From: Chryseolinea lacunae
GTDB taxonomy: Bacteria > Bacteroidota > Bacteroidia > Cytophagales > Cyclobacteriaceae
NCBI RefSeq assembly: GCF_016735595.1
Contig: NZ_JAERRB010000001.1
Location: 682,001-746,000 of the forward strand
DNA length: 64,000 bases
Direction of reading: 5' to 3'
In this document: piece after piece, positions 14,310 through 27,852 of the stretch
How positions within the stretch are numbered: the first letter of the stretch is position 1
Layout: every line of letters begins with the position of its first letter
Made by a program: the position numbers and the translations under genes
The notes under the pieces: model-generated
Databases searched by the model: none
Told to the model about the DNA's origin: nothing
Seen by the model: the letters and a program-made list of their open reading frames with translations, nothing else

Positions 14310-15362
14310 ATGCCTGAACCGGAAAAGGCCATCCCTCACCACGACATCGAGCTGAACGACAAAACCATTCGGCTCATCGGCATTCCATTTTTCGGCATCG
14401 TCATTCCCAATGCCACGGGATTGTTTGGCGCGCTCACGATGCGCGACGCGGCCTATTGGCTGGGCTATGGCTACTTCATCGCGCTGGCACTTTTCATCTG
14501 GCATGGCAACCGCTACCTGCTCTTCCGCACACGCAAACGCTTCACATGGTTTGACAAGCCCATCGAAAAACTGATCCTCCTTTTTCTCAACAACATTTTC
14601 TACACCTCGCCACTCACCATCGCGTGGTTGTGCATGTGGTATGCCTGGGTGGGCTTTGATGTGAAGTGGAACACCGTGCTGGTGGTCACACTCATCAACG
14701 TCATTTGTGTGCTCTTCATCACGCATGTTTACGAAACGGTGTTTATGGTGAAGGAGCAACAAGGCGAACAAGTGCGCAATGCACAGCTCTCAAAAGCAAA
14801 AGCCGAAGCCGAACTGGAAGCGCTCAAAAATCAGATCGACCCGCACTTCATGTTTAACTCGCTCAATAGTCTGGCCTATCTCATCGACACGCATCCTGCC
14901 ACGGCAAAGCTGTTCACCGAAAATCTGGCGGATGTGTATCGCTACATTCTCTCCCAAAAAGACCGCAGTCTTGTGCAACTGGAAGACGAGTTTGCGTTTC
15001 TTGAAAAGTATGCCGAATTGCTACGACTGCGTTTTGGAAAAGCCCTGGAGTTGCAGAAACATTTTAACGGCACCACCGAAAAAGATTTCCTGCTCCCACC
15101 CATCTCCGCCTTTGTGGCCTTTGAAAACGCCGTGAAGCACAACGAAATTTCGGAACGCACGCCACTGTGCATCGCGTTTCGGGTGGAGCACGATGTGCTG
15201 TTCATTCAAAACTCGCTGCAACCCAAACGAACGCTTCAACACTCGTCGCACATCGGGTTGAAGAATTTAAACGAACGGTTCAGGATCATTGTCGGAAAAG
15301 AAATTACCGTGACCAAGTCCGGCGATTCGTTTGTGGTGGGGTTGCCTTTGCTCAGAAGCTGA
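14310..15362 (+). CDS. LytS-type sensor histidine kinase
   Basis: The 350-residue protein has four membrane helices (residues about 22-140), a short coiled coil and a His_kinase domain with QIDPHFMFNSLNSL (phospho-acceptor His179). The ATP domain has FENAVKHN (N box) and HIGLKNLNERF (G box). It has no large periplasmic sensor, so it probably senses within the membrane or through a partner. A GTG at 14244 would add 22 residues, but the ATG at 14310 is preferred. The cognate LytTR regulator starts 55 nt downstream. Confidence 0.9.
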   Translation: MPEPEKAIPHHDIELNDKTIRLIGIPFFGIVIPNATGLFGALTMRDAAYWLGYGYFIALALFIWHGNRYLLFRTRKRFTWFDKPIEKLILLFLNNIFYTSPLTIAWLCMWYAWVGFDVKWNTVLVVTLINVICVLFITHVYETVFMVKEQQGEQVRNAQLSKAKAEAELEALKNQIDPHFMFNSLNSLAYLIDTHPATAKLFTENLADVYRYILSQKDRSLVQLEDEFAFLEKYAELLRLRFGKALELQKHFNGTTEKDFLLPPISAFVAFENAVKHNEISERTPLCIAFRVEHDVLFIQNSLQPKRTLQHSSHIGLKNLNERFRIIVGKEITVTKSGDSFVVGLPLLRS

Positions 15363-20608: not shown

Positions 20609-20941
20609 GCAATACGTTCGGTTTAGGTAAAATGATAGGCGTCAAGATAAGCACGTTTGGCTCAACCCATCAAGGGGAATACACGGGTGGTTTTTAAATC
20701 GTATCTGAGGGTGCCATGCTGCTCAGCGGCTACCCGAACTGATTTCGTGCCATTTCAGGATGCGCTCCGCCAACGTGTGAAATTTCTACAGCCCTGCCGT
20801 TCACGACCGTTTTCCGACAGGCCGGTGACGCGTGCTACGGTTCACTACACCGGTCTAACAGTTCGCTACATAACCCTTTCCGGGGGCGCATCTTCTTCGG
20901 ATACTTGTATCGTAAATACGCATAGAACAAACAAACTTGCT
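20609..20941. other. Divergent intergenic region, 333 bp
   Basis: This region separates the leftward amidohydrolase cluster from the rightward SDYY-repeat gene. A weak leftward promoter-like pair is visible (CAA at 20671-20673 and CAAGATA at 20643-20649 on the + strand, that is TTG - 21 nt - TATCTTG). I see no clear rightward promoter, no hairpin and no plausible gene. Confidence 0.5.
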
Positions 20942-22405
20942 ATGACAACGCGCCTCCGGTTACCGTATCTTTTAAGCCTTCTCTTCATCGCCGCAGTGTC
21001 CACCCCAGTTCTGTCGCAGGACGAGACGGCCACGTCCAGTTCGTCTTCCTCGGTCAGTGTGCATTCCGTGAACGGTGTGCAGCGCTGGAAAACCTCCACC
21101 GGCCTCTCCAACTTCAACGTGGAAGTGCGCGGCAAGATTGAGGTGACCGACGACGATAAAGACATCAAAGGACTTTCCGACAACGGCTACCTGGAAATTA
21201 CCAAGACCGTGTTTGGCAGCAAACGCTCCATCGTAGTGGAGTCGCTGGGCGGCGGCAAAATCAAGAAAGAATATTATGAAGGCCGCAACAAAATGGACTG
21301 GGAAACCAGCGGCAAAACGTGGCTGGGCGAAATCCTTCCTGAGATTGTGCGCTCTACGACGCTGGGTGCCGAAGGCCGCGTGAACCGTTTCTTCAAACAA
21401 GGCGGCAGCCCTTCCGTGCTCAAGGAAATAAACGGGATGGAGAGCGACTATGTGAAAGCCCACTACGCCAAACTGCTGCTCGACAAAAGCATTCCACCGG
21501 CCGACATGCCGAACGTGATCACACAACTGGCGTCGGCCATCCACTCTGACTATTATCTGTCGACAGTGTTGCAAAACAACATCACCAAAATGATGGCCAC
21601 ACCCGAATCGGCCGATGCATTTTTCAAGGGCACGCAGAAAATAAATTCCGACTACTATAAATCTGTCGTACTGAAAGAGGCCCTGAAGAAAGTGTCGGCG
21701 TCGCCGGCCCAAATCAAAGTGGTGCTTCAGTCTGCTGCCGAAATCAAATCGGACTACTATCTTTCTGTAGTACTCACCACGTTGCTGGAAGAAGACAACC
21801 TCAAAGAAGAATCGCTCAGTGAACTGGTATTGGTATCCAAAAAAATTCCGTCCGACTACTATCGCACGCAAGTGCTGTCGAAGGCATTGCGGAAACCCGG
21901 CATCTCAAAAGCCACGCTCAAAAATGTTGTGAACGCGTTGGCCGACGTTGGCTCGGACTACTACAAGACCGGCGTGTTTAACACCATGGCCGAACAAAGC
22001 ACGATGGACCCCGATGTGCAGATGCAGGTTGTGGTGTTGCTCGACAACTCGGTGGAATCGGACTACTATGCTTCGGGCACTATGAAGAACCTGCTGGAAC
22101 ATCAGAAACTTTCCGACGAATCGTTCAAACAACTGATCGACGCCGCGGGCCACCTAGAATCGGCCAACTATGCCAGTGAAGTGATGCGCGCCGCGGCCCG
22201 CACCGATCTGTCGCGCACACAACTGATCGACATTCTTATCGCCAGCGGCAACGTTCGTTCCGACCACTACCTCACCGAAGTGTTGCTCTCCCTCGCCGGA
22301 AAAGTGAAAACCAGCGACAGCACCGTGAAAGATGCCTATCGCAGCGCCGCCAAAAAAATAGGTTCGGAGACTTACTACGGCCGGACCATGAAAGCAATCG
22401 ACTAA
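20942..22405 (+). CDS. Secreted SDYY-repeat protein
   Basis: The 487-residue protein has a signal peptide (residues 1-25, ending VLSQ), a Ser/Thr-rich linker and a unique N-terminal region (about 30-160) of mixed beta character. From about residue 166 to the end come nine to ten helical repeats of 33-35 residues. Each begins with a SDYY-like core: starts near residues 168, 201, 236, 270, 303, 337, 372, 406, 440 and 474. I have seen similar SDYE-type repeats in Bacteroidota secreted or BlaR1-linked proteins, but no function is established. The repeats probably stack as an alpha solenoid. A LytS/LytTR set follows 57 nt downstream on the same strand. The frame is open upstream, but the ATG at 20942 gives the signal peptide. 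Confidence 0.8.
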   Translation: MTTRLRLPYLLSLLFIAAVSTPVLSQDETATSSSSSSVSVHSVNGVQRWKTSTGLSNFNVEVRGKIEVTDDDKDIKGLSDNGYLEITKTVFGSKRSIVVESLGGGKIKKEYYEGRNKMDWETSGKTWLGEILPEIVRSTTLGAEGRVNRFFKQGGSPSVLKEINGMESDYVKAHYAKLLLDKSIPPADMPNVITQLASAIHSDYYLSTVLQNNITKMMATPESADAFFKGTQKINSDYYKSVVLKEALKKVSASPAQIKVVLQSAAEIKSDYYLSVVLTTLLEEDNLKEESLSELVLVSKKIPSDYYRTQVLSKALRKPGISKATLKNVVNALADVGSDYYKTGVFNTMAEQSTMDPDVQMQVVVLLDNSVESDYYASGTMKNLLEHQKLSDESFKQLIDAAGHLESANYASEVMRAAARTDLSRTQLIDILIASGNVRSDHYLTEVLLSLAGKVKTSDSTVKDAYRSAAKKIGSETYYGRTMKAID

Positions 22406-22462: not shown

Positions 22463-23569
22463 ATGAGTTCGTCATCCCGGCTATTTGTCATGAACGCTTT
22501 TCTTAGAAGAACGCTCCTGGTAATGTTCATCTCCGGCTCGCTGGGATGGCTGCTCTTTGCTTACCTGCATTTCAGCGAGACCGACTCTTTCCCTTCCCTC
22601 CGCGAAAATTTCTCCGGCCTCATGGTCGCCATGCTCATCGGCTGGATAAACGGTGTCGGTTTGTATTTCGCCAATGGCTGGCTCGACAAGTGGCTCCCCT
22701 GGCGAAATCACTATGCCACCCGCTTCGTGGTGGGGTATGTCGTCAACTATGCGCTGGCACTTGCCATCACCTATGTGCTGGTGATCATCACGCTGTCGCT
22801 GGCAGGGCCCGAAACGTTCTGGGTTGGCTTTTCGCTGAAGGACCTCGACCTCAAAATAAAACTTGGCATCCTCCTGCTGTGCACCCTTTTCATCTACAAG
22901 GTGGTGTATGCGTTGCTCTACTCCTATCAACACTACACTGTGGCGCAGATTGAAAACATTCAACGCGAACGCAAACAACTGGAGCTTCAATTTGAAGCGT
23001 TGAAAAGCCAGATCAGTCCACACTATTTATTCAACAGCCTCAACACCATTTCGTCGCTTGTCTATAAAGACACGCCGTCGGCCGAACAATTTATCCGACG
23101 CCTTGTGCAAACGTATCAATACATCCTGTCGACCCAGAACAAACGTTTTGTGACTTTGCAGGATGAAATTGATTTTGTGCTGTCGTATTATTATCTGCTG
23201 CGCATCCGCTTTCAGCAACAGCTCACGGTGGAGATCAACTTGCCACACAACATCATGCACACCAAGATTCCGCCGCTCACATTGCAGATCCTGGTGGAGA
23301 ATGCCGTGAAGCACAACAACCTTTCGAGCGACAAAAAGCTTTTCATCTACATCACCGCACAAGACAACATGTTTCTGAAAGTGATCAACACCAAAACCGG
23401 AGCGCTCAGCGGTGTGACCTCGTTCCGCGTGGGGCTCGAAAACATTCAGAAGCGTTATGAGTTTTTTACAGACAAAAAAATCGAAATCAAAGACGACGAC
23501 AAGTTTGTGGTGACCTTGCCGGTCATTCATCATAAAACACGCGAACACGAACACAAACACAGCGCATGA
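22463..23569 (+). CDS. LytS-type sensor histidine kinase
   Basis: The 368-residue protein has four membrane helices (about 15-150), a short coiled coil and a His_kinase domain with QISPHYLFNSLNTIS (phospho-acceptor His187). The ATP-binding part has LVENAVKHN and VGLENIQKRYEF. It appears catalytically complete. The ATG at 22463 is preferred over GTG 22448; ATG 22490 (MNAFLRR) is also possible. Its TGA overlaps the ATG of the next gene by 4 nt (ATGA), so the two kinase-like proteins are translationally coupled and probably made in equal amounts. Confidence 0.92.
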   Translation: MSSSSRLFVMNAFLRRTLLVMFISGSLGWLLFAYLHFSETDSFPSLRENFSGLMVAMLIGWINGVGLYFANGWLDKWLPWRNHYATRFVVGYVVNYALALAITYVLVIITLSLAGPETFWVGFSLKDLDLKIKLGILLLCTLFIYKVVYALLYSYQHYTVAQIENIQRERKQLELQFEALKSQISPHYLFNSLNTISSLVYKDTPSAEQFIRRLVQTYQYILSTQNKRFVTLQDEIDFVLSYYYLLRIRFQQQLTVEINLPHNIMHTKIPPLTLQILVENAVKHNNLSSDKKLFIYITAQDNMFLKVINTKTGALSGVTSFRVGLENIQKRYEFFTDKKIEIKDDDKFVVTLPVIHHKTREHEHKHSA

Positions 23570-24615
23570 AACGTTACTTTATTCACAATGCGTTTTTCCG
23601 GTTGCTGGCGCCCATTATCTATGGTGCGCTGGCCTATTTGCTCATCCTGCTCATCAGTAACAACGTGGCCCAGGTAAACGATTTCTTCAGTGGCCAGGAA
23701 GTTTATGTATGCATCGGGTTGGTGTATGTGTCGCTGGAGTCGATGCGTGTCATCATCGTGCTGCTGGACAAGTTTTTGCCCGAACGTTATTTGTCGCTGC
23801 GGGTGCCGGTTCAGTTTCTCATCACCACGGTGGTTTCGGTTGGTCTGGTGTCGCTCGGGCTTCATTTGTATTTCCAGTATGTGGTGGGCTTTAGCATGAG
23901 TGGTGTTCAGGTGCTGATCTTCTCCATCCTGTTCACAGTCACGGCGCTGTTGTATAACATCCTGTACTTCAGCAACCACTTCCTGCAAAAAGAGAACACC
24001 CTGAAGCTGAATCTGGAAAAACAACAACAGGAAGTGCTGGAAGCCGAAATGATGGAATTCAAAAACGACGTGAACGCCGACCTGCTCTACGAAAGTCTGG
24101 AAAGCCTTATCACCCTCATGTATCGCGACGTAGACCAGGCCGAAGAATACATCGACTGCCTTGCGAGCGCCTACCGCTATGTGCTCAGCAATCGTCATCA
24201 GGAACTGGTGCCGGTGGCACAGGAACTGGACGCCGCCAAAAACCTCGTGAAACTTCTCAACGAAAAACACTTTGGGCAACTGCGACTCGAATCGACCTTA
24301 GATGCCGACGACCTCAGCGCCATGCTCATTCCGGGATCGCTGCCCATCATCATCGAAAGCCTGGTGCGCAACACCATCATCTCGCGGTTCGAGCCCATGG
24401 TGATTCGTTGCTATCTGGAAGAAGACTATATCACGTTGCAAAGCAAACTCAACGACCGGCTCATCGTACACCCCAACACCGAAATGGCGTTGAACCGGCT
24501 GCAACGATCGTATGCCATGTATAGCGACCTCACCATGATTAAAGTGAAGGCCTACGAAGAAAATTATATTAAATTGCCCGTGATTCGCGTGGCGGAAGAA
24601 ATCACGACGTATTGA
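23566..24615 (+). CDS. LytS-like pseudokinase without phospho-acceptor histidine
   Basis: The 349-residue protein has the same design as the gene before it: four membrane helices, coiled coil, then a kinase-like domain. The active-site pieces are gone. The histidine motif aligns as DVNADLLYESLESL, with Asp172 where the neighbour has His187. The N-box ENAVKHN aligns with ESLVRNT, and the G box aligns with MALNRLQ. It should neither bind ATP normally nor phosphorylate. I infer a regulatory or sensing subunit that pairs with the intact kinase. The reading frame is undisturbed, so it is a maintained gene, not a recent pseudogene. It overlaps the kinase by 4 nt and the regulator by 1 nt. Confidence 0.85.
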   Translation: MKRYFIHNAFFRLLAPIIYGALAYLLILLISNNVAQVNDFFSGQEVYVCIGLVYVSLESMRVIIVLLDKFLPERYLSLRVPVQFLITTVVSVGLVSLGLHLYFQYVVGFSMSGVQVLIFSILFTVTALLYNILYFSNHFLQKENTLKLNLEKQQQEVLEAEMMEFKNDVNADLLYESLESLITLMYRDVDQAEEYIDCLASAYRYVLSNRHQELVPVAQELDAAKNLVKLLNEKHFGQLRLESTLDADDLSAMLIPGSLPIIIESLVRNTIISRFEPMVIRCYLEEDYITLQSKLNDRLIVHPNTEMALNRLQRSYAMYSDLTMIKVKAYEENYIKLPVIRVAEEITTY

Positions 24616-25391
24616 TGAAGGTTTTAATCATAGAAGACGAAACACCGGCTGCCGAAAAACTGGAACGCTACCTGCTCAAGTACGATCCTGCCACTGTGGT
24701 GGTGTCTGTGCTGGACACGATAGAGAAAGCCGTGTCGTGGCTGGCAACCCACCAGGATCAAATCGATCTCATCTTCATGGACATTCAGTTGAAAGACGGC
24801 CTCAGCTTCCAGATCTTTCAACAGGTTGTAGTGAAAAAGCCCGTCATCTTCACCACGGCCTTCAACGAATTTGCGCTCGATGCCTTTAAGGTGAGCAGCA
24901 TCGACTATCTTCTGAAACCCATCACCTTCACCGACCTCTCGGCAAGCCTCAAGAAACTGGAAAGCCTGCGCGAGCAGCTTCAGCCAAAAGACCAGCCCGA
25001 GCGCATCCAAACGTTGTTCACTAACCTCAAAACAAAAGAATACAAAACACGCTTCATGGTGAAGCTGGGCGAACACATCCGTTCCATCACGGCCGACCAG
25101 ATCAGTCTTTTTTATGCCGACGGGCGCGATGTGTATTTAGTGACCACCCAAAACCGGAAGTTTATTATCGACTACACACTGGAGTCGCTGGAAGATATTC
25201 TGGATCCCCAGGTTTTTTTCAGACTCAACCGCACGTTCATCCTAAATATTAATGGCATCAAAGACGTGCTGGTTTATTCCAACAGCCGGCTCAAGATCAC
25301 GCTCGTGCAGGAATTCGACAAAGAAATTATTGTGAGTCGCGAGAAAGTGGGCGACTTCAAGGAATGGTTTGATGGGTTGCAGCGCGCCTAG
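24615..25391 (+). CDS. LytTR-family response regulator
   Basis: The 258-residue protein has a receiver domain (IIEDE at residues 5-9, Asp56 in FMDIQLK, FTTAF, LLKPI) and a LytTR DNA-binding domain (about 145-250, [15 protein letters not shown]). The ATG at 24615 overlaps the pseudokinase stop (TGATG). It is the output of the kinase/pseudokinase pair. It converges on the SUI1 gene with a 4-nt overlap of stop codons. Confidence 0.92.
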
Positions 25392-25735
25392 CCTGCGCGT
25401 TTGGCTTTGTAGCCCTCCTTCAGCAGCAGCTGCACCAGCTTGTCGCGGTGGTCGCCCTGAATGATCACTTCGCCGTCTTTCACAGAACCGCCCACGCCAC
25501 ATTTTGATTTCAACAGTTTGCCCAGTTGTTCCAGGTCGGCCGCAGTGCCCACAAAGCCGGTGACCAGCGTCACTTGTTTACCGGCGCGCATACTTTTGTC
25601 GAGCATCACTTTCAGATTTTGTTGCTGGGGTGGCAGGGTCTGTGCTTCGTCGTTGCCCTGATACGAAAACTCAAAATCCGACGCGGTGGAGAATACCACG
25701 CCATCGCGTTTCTTCCAGTCGTTGTTCTTTGCCAT
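25388..25735 (-). CDS. SUI1/eIF1-like translation factor (YciH family)
   Basis: The 115-residue protein has the SUI1 fold in its C-terminal 80 residues: [33 protein letters not shown] and the terminal LLLKEGY. Bacterial YciH proteins resemble eukaryotic eIF1 and may affect initiation fidelity, but they are not essential. It follows the membrane J-protein gene with one base between them, so the two form an operon. The stop overlaps that of the convergent LytTR gene by 4 nt. Confidence 0.92.
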
Positions 25736-25736
25736 G

Positions 25737-26540
25737 CTACAAAGTTAAGATGATGAAGATCATTAACACCAGCACAATAGCACTGGTAACGCCCAAATTA
25801 AATCCGGCTTCCACCCGGTTGCGGAGATACACGCCCGCCGCCGACAGAACGAGCAACGCCAGTGGCACAAACAAAAAATTGCCCAGCAGCGATCGCCCGA
25901 TGCGGTGCACGTAACCTCCCGACTGCACCCTACGGGGAATATTAAACAACAACGATGAACGGAACGCAACGCGTTCGCCCTTCCTGAAAAAGTCCTGCAA
26001 GTCGATGGGCAGGTGCACCGTCTTGCCTTCGTCGGTCACAATGGCCCACGAATCATCGCCACGGTAGCGGGCGGCACGGCTCTCGACGCGATAGGCATAT
26101 TGAATGGTGGCTTCATGCTGACGGTTCGGCAATACAAAATCGACGGCGAGACACACCGCGATGACAAAACAGACTTTTGAAATCTTTACGGCCCACGGCA
26201 AATATTTGCGCATGGCGTCGTGCACGGTGGGCTTGCGTTTTTGCGGCGGAACATGGGTGTGTGCCTGCCCGCGATAGGCCGGGTCGCGATGTCTTGGTTT
26301 AGGAGGCGCGGGTGTGTGCAACACCACGCCATAGTAGTTTTCGCGCTTGCGATCGTACATCATTTTCTTCACGGGATCGCTCAGCACATTATAGGCCGCC
26401 GTCACTTCTTTGAAGTACGATTCAGCCCGGGGATCGGGGTTCTTGTCGGGGTGATAGGCAACCGCAATCTTCCGGTAGGCCCTCTTGATGTCTAACGCGC
26501 TGGCGGAGTAGCTAACACCCAAAGTCTGATAGTGATCCAT
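25737..26540 (-). CDS. Membrane-anchored J-domain protein
   Basis: The 267-residue protein starts with a complete J domain (residues 1-65, including YHPDKNPD with the HPD triad that stimulates DnaK ATPase). A His/Pro-rich linker follows (about 75-100, [10 protein letters not shown]), then a membrane helix (about 115-140), a beta-rich segment (about 145-215) and two more membrane helices (about 220-267). It has no Gly/Phe or zinc-finger region, so it is not DnaJ itself but a specialised co-chaperone acting at the inner membrane. Its client is unknown. The SUI1 gene follows 1 nt after its stop. Confidence 0.85.
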
Positions 26541-26548
26541 ACGGATTG

Positions 26549-26587
26549 GGAAAAGAAAAGCCCGGTGGATATAGACCAGGCTTTTCT
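26549..26587 (-). terminator. Terminator of the universal stress protein gene
   Basis: Arms 26554-26562 (AGAAAAGCC) and 26579-26587 (GGCTTTTCT) pair perfectly, extended inward by three pairs after one mismatch. On the - strand the stem runs into a T-rich tract (CTTTTCTTTTCC). It lies between the UspA stop and the J-protein start. Confidence 0.75.
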
Positions 26588-26630
26588 ACGTTTCAATTTC
26601 TTATAACGCAACGTTGAATTTACAGACCAA

Positions 26631-27491
26631 TTATTTCTTGCGTCGCTTCGTCACAAAGGTCAGCACAGGACGGCGCGAGTGGCTCACCACATCTTCGGCG
26701 ATGCTTCCGGCCAACACGTGCGCGAAACCGGTGCGGCCGTGAGTAGCCATCGCAATGAGGTCGGCGTTGATGCTGTCGGCAAAATAAACGATACCTTCTT
26801 CTTCGCTCACGTCGTTGAACACGTTGATGGTATAGTTCTTCAGTTGCAGTTTCTTTGCAAAGTCTTCCATGTATTTTTTCACCACTACATCGCGCTGAAA
26901 ATTTCCAGGTGTGTTGATGCGCACAAGGTGCACGGTGGAGTCGTAGATTCTTTGGGTGGTGCGCACAATGCGGGAGAAGATCTCTTCGTCTTTCTCCATC
27001 GACGTGGCATACACGATGTCTTTAAAGTTTTTGCTGATCGGTTTTTCGTGCACGGTGAGCACGGGGCAGTTGGATTGACGAATCACTTTTTCGGTGTTCG
27101 AGCCAATGATCATCTGCTCCAGGTCGCTGTGACCGGCGGTGCCCATCACAATGAGGTCTACCTTCTTGTCGGTGATGATGGAGTTCATGCCGTGGAAAGC
27201 ATTTCCCACACGCAGGGCCTGCTTCACGCGCACGCCTTCAAACTTCGGATCTTCCACCAGCTTCGCCATCTGCTTTTTCGCTTTCTCGATGAGCTTCAGG
27301 GTGAAGATTTTTTCTTCCCAATCGCCGTCCACATCCACCTGGCCTTCCACGTTCATCGAGTTGCCGATAGCTTCTTCTACAACGTGAAGGAATGTGAGTT
27401 CGGCGCCAGACTTCTTCGCAATGTCAGCGGCAACGCCGGCGGCAATCTGTGCAGGTTTCGAAAAGTCGGTTGGGACAAGTATTTTTTTCAT
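26631..27491 (-). CDS. Universal stress protein with two UspA domains
   Basis: The 286-residue protein holds two tandem UspA folds. The first (residues 1-150) begins KKILVPTDFSK and has the ATP-type loop GTAGHSDLEQMIIGSNTEKV; the second (about 155-280) ends with MATHGRTGFAHVLAGSIAEDVV, which fits the G-x2-G-x9-G(S/T) nucleotide-binding pattern. Tandem UspA proteins are common in Bacteroidota and accumulate under starvation or redox stress. The frame is open upstream, but the ATG at 27491 begins the fold directly. Confidence 0.93.
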   Translation of the reverse strand: MKKILVPTDFSKPAQIAAGVAADIAKKSGAELTFLHVVEEAIGNSMNVEGQVDVDGDWEEKIFTLKLIEKAKKQMAKLVEDPKFEGVRVKQALRVGNAFHGMNSIITDKKVDLIVMGTAGHSDLEQMIIGSNTEKVIRQSNCPVLTVHEKPISKNFKDIVYATSMEKDEEIFSRIVRTTQRIYDSTVHLVRINTPGNFQRDVVVKKYMEDFAKKLQLKNYTINVFNDVSEEEGIVYFADSINADLIAMATHGRTGFAHVLAGSIAEDVVSHSRRPVLTFVTKRRKK

Positions 27492-27852
27492 GAGCAGTAA
27501 GAATTTGTTTTGTATTTGAAGTACAGCCATTGACCCGTTAACGGGCAAAATAACAGGTTCTAAAATTAAAATAAATCTGCAACAATCATACACCCTTAAA
27601 CCTCTTTTCCCGCACAATACCATCCTAATCCAACCCCCTGGCCGCATCGCCCTCTTTCTAATATCCTTACCTCCAAGTGCTTACCGGGATCGCCGTGCAC
27701 AATCTTCGCACCTTTCCGCCCAACCCGCTGTTCGCTCGGCGAGGGCCACATCAAAAACCATCTTCAGAAACTCATCGCAACTATTCCCGTCACCGCCAGA
27801 ATTTTTGGTATATGACAACCTGTTGCACTTCACCCGGCCCTACCTTTGCAAC
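27492..27852. other. Divergent intergenic region, 361 bp
   Basis: This region lies between the leftward UspA gene and the rightward CDF transporter gene. It contains a 12-bp perfect palindrome CCCGTTAACGGG (27534-27545), 43 nt upstream of the UspA start, and an A+T-rich stretch (27556-27585) suited to a UspA promoter. At its right end is the -7 box of the CDF gene. Short open frames here have no protein-like features. Confidence 0.5.
27841..27848 (+). promoter_or_regulatory. -7 box TACCTTTG directly before the CDF transporter start
   Basis: TACCTTTG matches the TAnnTTTG consensus and ends 4 nt before the ATG at 27853. If it is used, transcription would start at or within a few bases of the ATG, giving a leaderless or nearly leaderless mRNA. 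A TTG occurs 15 nt upstream, closer than usual. Confidence 0.4.

Follow-up and report, generated by a model that had tools for sequence, protein, structure and literature searches.

What does a histidine kinase do once it has lost its phospho-acceptor histidine, when an intact kinase is encoded directly beside it? The usual description of a histidine kinase is that of a homodimer, and to our knowledge natural pairs of kinase and pseudokinase with a regulator of their own have rarely been described. The question is raised by a 64,000-nucleotide stretch of the Chryseolinea lacunae genome (hereafter the window), in which three overlapping plus-strand genes encode a four-helix membrane histidine kinase (K, 22463-23569), a membrane pseudokinase of the same layout (Q, 23566-24615) and a response regulator with a receiver and a LytTR DNA-binding domain (R, 24615-25391). 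We report that the sequence of Q marks it as a conserved pseudokinase, one that has no ATP-binding motifs and cannot accept phosphate at the customary histidine, that K-Q-R is accompanied by an upstream gene, X, and a probable binding site of R, and that the pattern of conservation suggests a sensor made of two parts, in which the dead kinase copy has taken over the sensing.

Results

Reading of the sequence, Pfam scanning and alignment place the catalytic motifs of K at His187, residues 279-285 (ENAVKHN) and Gly324. At the aligned positions Q, for which a structure model was also made, has Asp172 (codon at 24079-24081, plus strand), the degenerate N-box ESLVRNT (residues 264-270; 24355-24375, plus strand) and Ala308. 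A first-pass annotation made from the letters alone had drawn attention to these same losses, and alignment bears it out; its overlaps are also recovered when the genes are read directly, with 4 nucleotides (nt) shared by K and Q (ATGA) and 1 nt by Q and R (TGATG) if R starts at its ATG, or 4 nt if it starts at a TTG at 24612. Both K and Q pass the cut-off of PF06580 (79.9 and 36.2 bits, respectively, against 25.2), and PF00072 and PF04397 match R above cut-off. By these features both K, a histidine kinase of PF06580 type, and R, a LytTR regulator, are intact, the phospho-acceptor Asp being kept in 44 of 44 R proteins of the family. The genome to which the window belongs encodes 30 PF06580 proteins above cut-off, of which 28 have a histidine at the acceptor site (by pattern or by eye) and one is truncated upstream of it; among those that cover this position, only Q has another residue. 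The name LytS, which the first-pass annotation had given to both proteins, does not hold in its strict sense. According to the accessible text of PMC10653868, LytS-type kinases are defined by the 5TMR-LYT membrane domain; at E-values up to 1, PF06580 matched all 16 K and all 16 Q proteins scanned, and the 5TMR-LYT Pfam family was among the matches of none of them (0/16 and 0/16), so that LytS is a loose name for K and Q alike.

Searches with Q and with its alignment yielded 42 distinct loci after removal of same-place duplicates, from genomes that are a sample and at loci that are related to one another, so that the counts do not represent independent events. The histidine and the G-box glycine are absent from all 42 Q proteins and a full N-box occurs in none, although four retain one Asn, the first of the box. 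In place of the histidine stands Asp or Glu in 28 of the 42, Pro in eight, and Phe, Gly, Thr, Ser, Lys or Arg in one each. Histidine, N-box and G-box glycine are intact in every K beside a Q (41/41), K of locus L064 lying on another contig, and five further pairs from the same class but outside the order show the same split of intact K and degenerate Q (5/5). Among 291 sampled genomes of the order, 31 contain a Q of at least 198 bits, the next match down scoring 168 bits; in wider samples, of the class and of the phylum, a match better than 1e-52 occurs in 8 and 6 of 395 genomes, with none outside the class among the matches listed. When K was searched for by profile, a K of at least 370 bits was always accompanied by Q (22/22 genomes), with the limit that in genus g75 the profile does not tell K apart from ordinary kinases; one genome (G145) gave a K-like match of 282 bits, under the 370-bit line.

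The gene order persists as well. K and Q are separated by 20 nt or less at 39 of 46 loci, and R lies within the stretch examined at 44 of 47 Q loci; of the others, L063 stops at a contig end, and L050 and L064 (genus g129) have R elsewhere. Looked for in other genomes, the K-Q-R order proved to be conserved far beyond the genus, and no relative of Q with a normal histidine was found in the K-Q-R setting. In a tree from a quick search, with several long branches and with neither the root nor the kinase from which Q descends settled, Q forms one clade and K another; repeated, independent losses of the histidine in separate lineages were considered and are unsupported, as Q forms a single clade. 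One long-branched subgroup of Q (L065-L072, genus g75) has Pro at the histidine position and retains the K-Q-R order. Ratios of non-synonymous to synonymous substitution (dN/dS) are 0.03-0.10 for Q and 0.03-0.09 for K in four species pairs, in two of which dS is near or above 1. Because the same losses recur in all 42 Q proteins beside 41 of 41 intact K proteins, under low dN/dS, they are due neither to chance nor to decay. The proposal that the open frame of Q argues for function, and with it the view that a genuine pseudokinase accompanies an intact kinase and LytTR regulator, has accordingly gained weight from frames that stay open family-wide.

Which parts of the two proteins are kept differs in a telling manner. 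Mean pairwise identity over 41 loci (820 pairs), bootstrapped over loci, is higher for Q than for K in the membrane part (0.329 vs 0.228), and higher for K than for Q both in the linker and DHp region (0.556 vs 0.427) and in the CA domain (0.484 vs 0.327); the bootstraps exclude zero for all three differences. A division of labor in which Q senses and K catalyzes would be expected to give this split, and the pattern favors a sensing over a restraining role for Q. The model of Q (predicted local distance difference test, pLDDT, 82; predicted template modeling score, pTM, 0.52) retains kinase-like DHp and CA domains, and its best PDB match is the kinase domain of GanS, with the DivL structure 4q20 also among the matches. 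The net charge of the linker and DHp region averages -4.85 in Q and +1.21 in K, and is higher in K at 35 of 39 loci, a difference that is suggestive only as a hint of pairing.

Directly upstream of K, on the same strand, stands X, in all 27 clustered Q neighborhoods and at four more loci (31/31). In the window it occupies 20942-22405 (plus strand), the ATG at 20942 having been chosen as its start within a longest open reading frame (ORF) that begins at 20657. X looks secreted: an export-signal-like N-terminus, recognized by eye, is followed by a beta domain and a helical solenoid of ~34-residue repeats, in an AlphaFold2 model of pLDDT 90.8. The window copy matches no Pfam or NCBIfam family above cut-off, and Pfam yields no consistent family for X, DUF4476 being a weak match in 7 of 27 members; rows of fold similarity (VIA) are mostly large HEAT/ARM proteins, which say little about function. 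X occurs in 36 of the 291 genomes of the order, including all 31 with Q, and the two lie on the same contig within ~3 kb in 30 of these 31 (on two contigs in G228). Fisher's test for their co-occurrence gives p 7e-37, a figure that ignores kinship among the genomes and the origin of the X profile, which was built from neighborhoods selected for holding Q. The five genomes with X that fall under the Q threshold have no K, Q or R beside X.

Alignment of the DNA upstream of X uncovered a direct repeat, ACRGTTCANTACA-N8-ACRGTTCANTACA, which in the window reads ACGGTTCACTACA-N8-ACAGTTCGCTACA with a 21-bp period (20837-20870, plus strand). A consensus of 24 scored positions was written by eye from 10 loci, and scanned for in 400 nt upstream of, and 120 nt inside, the longest ORF. 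The window repeat matches 23 of the 24 positions, a score equaled in 0 of 300 shuffles permuting dinucleotide blocks; it is the only site in the window to score at least 19, and the only match with up to three mismatches in the 7.9 Mb genome. At 28 of 30 X-K-Q loci a site scores at least 19 of 24, always with period 21, and L186 adds one (29/31); among loci outside the set from which the consensus was built, 18 of 20 do so. By comparison, sites at the X loci that lack an adjacent K-Q score 13-17 (0/5 reach 19), and upstream of other genes in these neighborhoods only one of 234 stretches reaches 19. The pattern with up to three mismatches occurs once each in G000, G001 and G002, every time before X. 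In 20 further genomes, the near-identical ACRRTTCANTACA-N8-ACRRTTCANTACA stands before X in 12 of 16 with X-K-Q and in none of the four with X but no adjacent K-Q, and the reversed pattern, used as a control, gave one match in total. At four of the 28 site loci (L113, L119, L122, L127) the site falls within or at the start of the longest ORF, the start of which has probably been over-called there.

By its sequence the repeat has the form of a LytTR site (paired repeats of 9-11 nt, a spacer of 11-13 nt, a place at the target promoter), and the site layout in the accessible part of PMC4847170 fits it; we predict that it is a probable binding site of R. As X and a LytTR-type repeat precede K-Q-R, the locus appears to be a four-gene, probably self-regulated unit. 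The extent first assigned to it, 22463-25391, fits K, Q and R, and missed X and the repeat, from which the unit starts at about 20837.

Several features besides the unit itself stood out. Two or three tandem amidohydrolase-like genes lie upstream of X on the minus strand, ending at ~20608 (kept in 8 of 27 neighborhoods), and downstream a group of minus-strand genes at 25388-27647, kept in 6 or 7 of 27, includes DnaJ-like and universal-stress-like genes, named by eye, and a small translation-factor-like gene that we take to be SUI1. A second pair of PF06580 kinase and LytTR regulator is found in the window at 14628-15359 (in L007 and L093), with its histidine intact. In genome G000, a 161-residue kinase fragment without the histidine part, possibly a truncated gene, is followed by a LytTR regulator (G000:C13:92892-93359; L107).

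Discussion

We consider it somewhat probable that X-K-Q-R is one dedicated signaling unit, autoregulated, in which a K:Q heterodimer divides its tasks, Q sensing and K catalyzing. The heterodimer itself is something we infer: made together, K and Q would associate by way of their membrane, signal and DHp helices, with Q providing the sensing membrane half and K the phosphate chemistry. Such an arrangement demands either that K phosphorylate its own histidine in cis, or that the state of K:Q control K:K. Phosphorylated R would then bind the repeat and drive X-K-Q-R, X being the conserved output. Since X is probably outside the membrane, near the loops of Q and K, it may also be sensed, which would make a homeostatic envelope loop. 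A bolder version can be offered tentatively, and we think it possible though doubtful: a closed homeostatic loop in which X is both the signal sensed by Q and the main or only transcriptional output, the regulator has about one DNA site per genome, and a sensor kinase split into sensing Q and catalytic K has been made and inherited jointly across several orders of Bacteroidia-like bacteria.

A number of observations weigh against the division of labor within a dedicated unit, or weaken the case for it. The linker is 38 residues long in all 39 K and all 39 Q proteins compared, but also in 18 of 28 other kinases aligned, and its equal length is therefore not specific to K:Q pairing; the mirror-tree correlation between K and Q (r 0.964) has no control for shared descent and is hence non-specific. 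Genomes G083 and G137 carry a diverged K'-Q' pair apart from X (L178:1785-3919 and L179:5114-7248), in which K' is intact and Q' lacks an N-box and reads IHPRFWFASLE, with Arg, where the histidine would be; the pair is not directly followed by a regulator, and no site like the one before X was found beside either. Because of these pairs, only G144, G171 and G231 look truly X-only, and in those three X stands alone, so it must have a function without Q. The X-K-Q loci L112 and L123 have no site, with nothing better in their 16 kb, and additional matches of the near-identical pattern occur elsewhere in 4 of the 16 X-K-Q genomes (G306, G016, G275 and G215). R has also moved away from X-K-Q in G215 and G228 (L184:5971-6747 and L185:6133-6912). 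In genus g129 the R found elsewhere is 60-61% identical, with the next best at 47-48%, and in G215 the site before X is retained.

Much turns on the chemistry of K. Were K to phosphorylate in trans, the K:Q dimer would be dead, as trans phosphorylation needs both halves and Q has neither acceptor histidine nor ATP site; Q would then be a brake, and a signal would release K to form K:K. With phosphorylation in cis, the heterodimer itself can be the active species. Restraint has a parallel in RetS, which inhibits GacS via a heterodimer (PMC12189002, in the text accessible). The coupling of the genes, however, suggests that K and Q are made in about equal amounts, which is odd for a mere brake, and a simple poison subunit would not need a membrane part better kept than that of K; we regard restraint as unlikely, and gene coupling together with the better-kept membrane part of Q leads us to favor a working heterodimer. 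Alternatively, Q may not pair with K at all. It may instead be a transmitter put to new use, one that monitors whether R is phosphorylated or that tethers R or X to the membrane. DivL, which lost its histidine, binds DivK~P and reverses the flow of information (accessible text of PMC4211667), offers a model for this, as does the presence of its structure among the fold matches of Q. Yet DivL, according to its structure paper, keeps its H, N, G1, F and G2 motifs, Q has lost the N- and G-box residues, and the CA domain is among the less conserved parts of Q, which together make this role quite improbable. That Q still performs phosphotransfer or binds ATP through other residues might be argued from the acidic residue that commonly replaces the histidine and from the CA-like fold of the model, but the variety of other residues at that position and the loss of the N- and G-box residues render it very improbable. 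A decaying, functionless duplicate would account for the lost motifs and deserves next to no credence, being ruled out by the uniformity of those losses, by purifying selection on frames open throughout the family, and by a single old clade found in 31 of 291 genomes of the order and in other orders.

Dozens of natural K-Q pairs share one gene order, one split between membrane and catalytic conservation and one predicted DNA target, and they turn the pseudokinase as sensing subunit of a histidine kinase into a directly testable question. They also give X, a family to which Pfam assigns no consistent name, its first context.

Comparison with known systems

In the literature searched, which left most subscription papers outside it and was accessible in part, no description of the X-K-Q-R family was found, and PMC11481889, PMC8895600 and PMC10197871 had no bearing on it. 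For X, a parallel in setting is offered by the neighborhoods of Toastrack, LiaI-LiaF and LytTR proteins (PMC11237479), in which a protein with a beta domain, encoded close to a LytTR or two-component module, has been suggested to take part in sensing the envelope. X differs from the Toastrack proteins, as far as they are described there, in being secreted-looking and in having a helical solenoid. Kinship of its N-domain with Toastrack/DUF4097 was considered and is unsupported by Pfam, none of the Toastrack families DUF4097, DUF2154 and DUF2807 being among the matches of X.

K and R resemble BtsS/BtsR and YpdA/YpdB of E. coli, each with a PHF-type H-box kinase and a LytTR regulator, and regulators of the BtsR/YpdB type bind paired repeats and activate a dedicated target (PMC10653868, PMC5552118, PMC4847170, in their accessible portions). 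Unlike K-Q, BtsS and YpdA carry a 5TMR-LYT domain in the membrane, and each regulator is served by just one active kinase. RetS and GacS of Pseudomonas are like the proposed K:Q in that one kinase is regulated by heterodimerization with another; RetS, in the available part of PMC12189002, is a hybrid kinase with phosphatase activity towards GacS, whereas Q has no receiver domain. DivL, a pseudo-histidine kinase of Caulobacter, is like Q in having lost the acceptor histidine in a conserved lineage, and it works without kinase activity, controlling another kinase (PMC4211667, as accessible). It belongs to another type of histidine kinase and retains the other kinase motifs; Q, unlike DivL, has also lost the residues of the N- and G-boxes, and its gene adjoins those of its presumed partner and regulator.

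The nearest precedent for K-Q-R, on the accessible text of PMC12675982, is FasB/FasC/FasA of group A Streptococcus, in which two kinase-like membrane proteins and one regulator are encoded together, one partner is a proposed pseudokinase, and there is a dedicated promoter target. FasB and FasC formed a heterodimer by two-hybrid, and neither homodimerized in that test. That text mentions no X-like gene, and the likeness is one of description; FasC, moreover, keeps a required phospho-acceptor, His246, whereas Q has lost its own. K-Q thus stands apart from each of its precedents, FasC keeping its histidine, DivL its other motifs and the LytS kinases their 5TMR-LYT domain, and comes closest to FasBC in pairing two kinase-like membrane proteins with one regulator.
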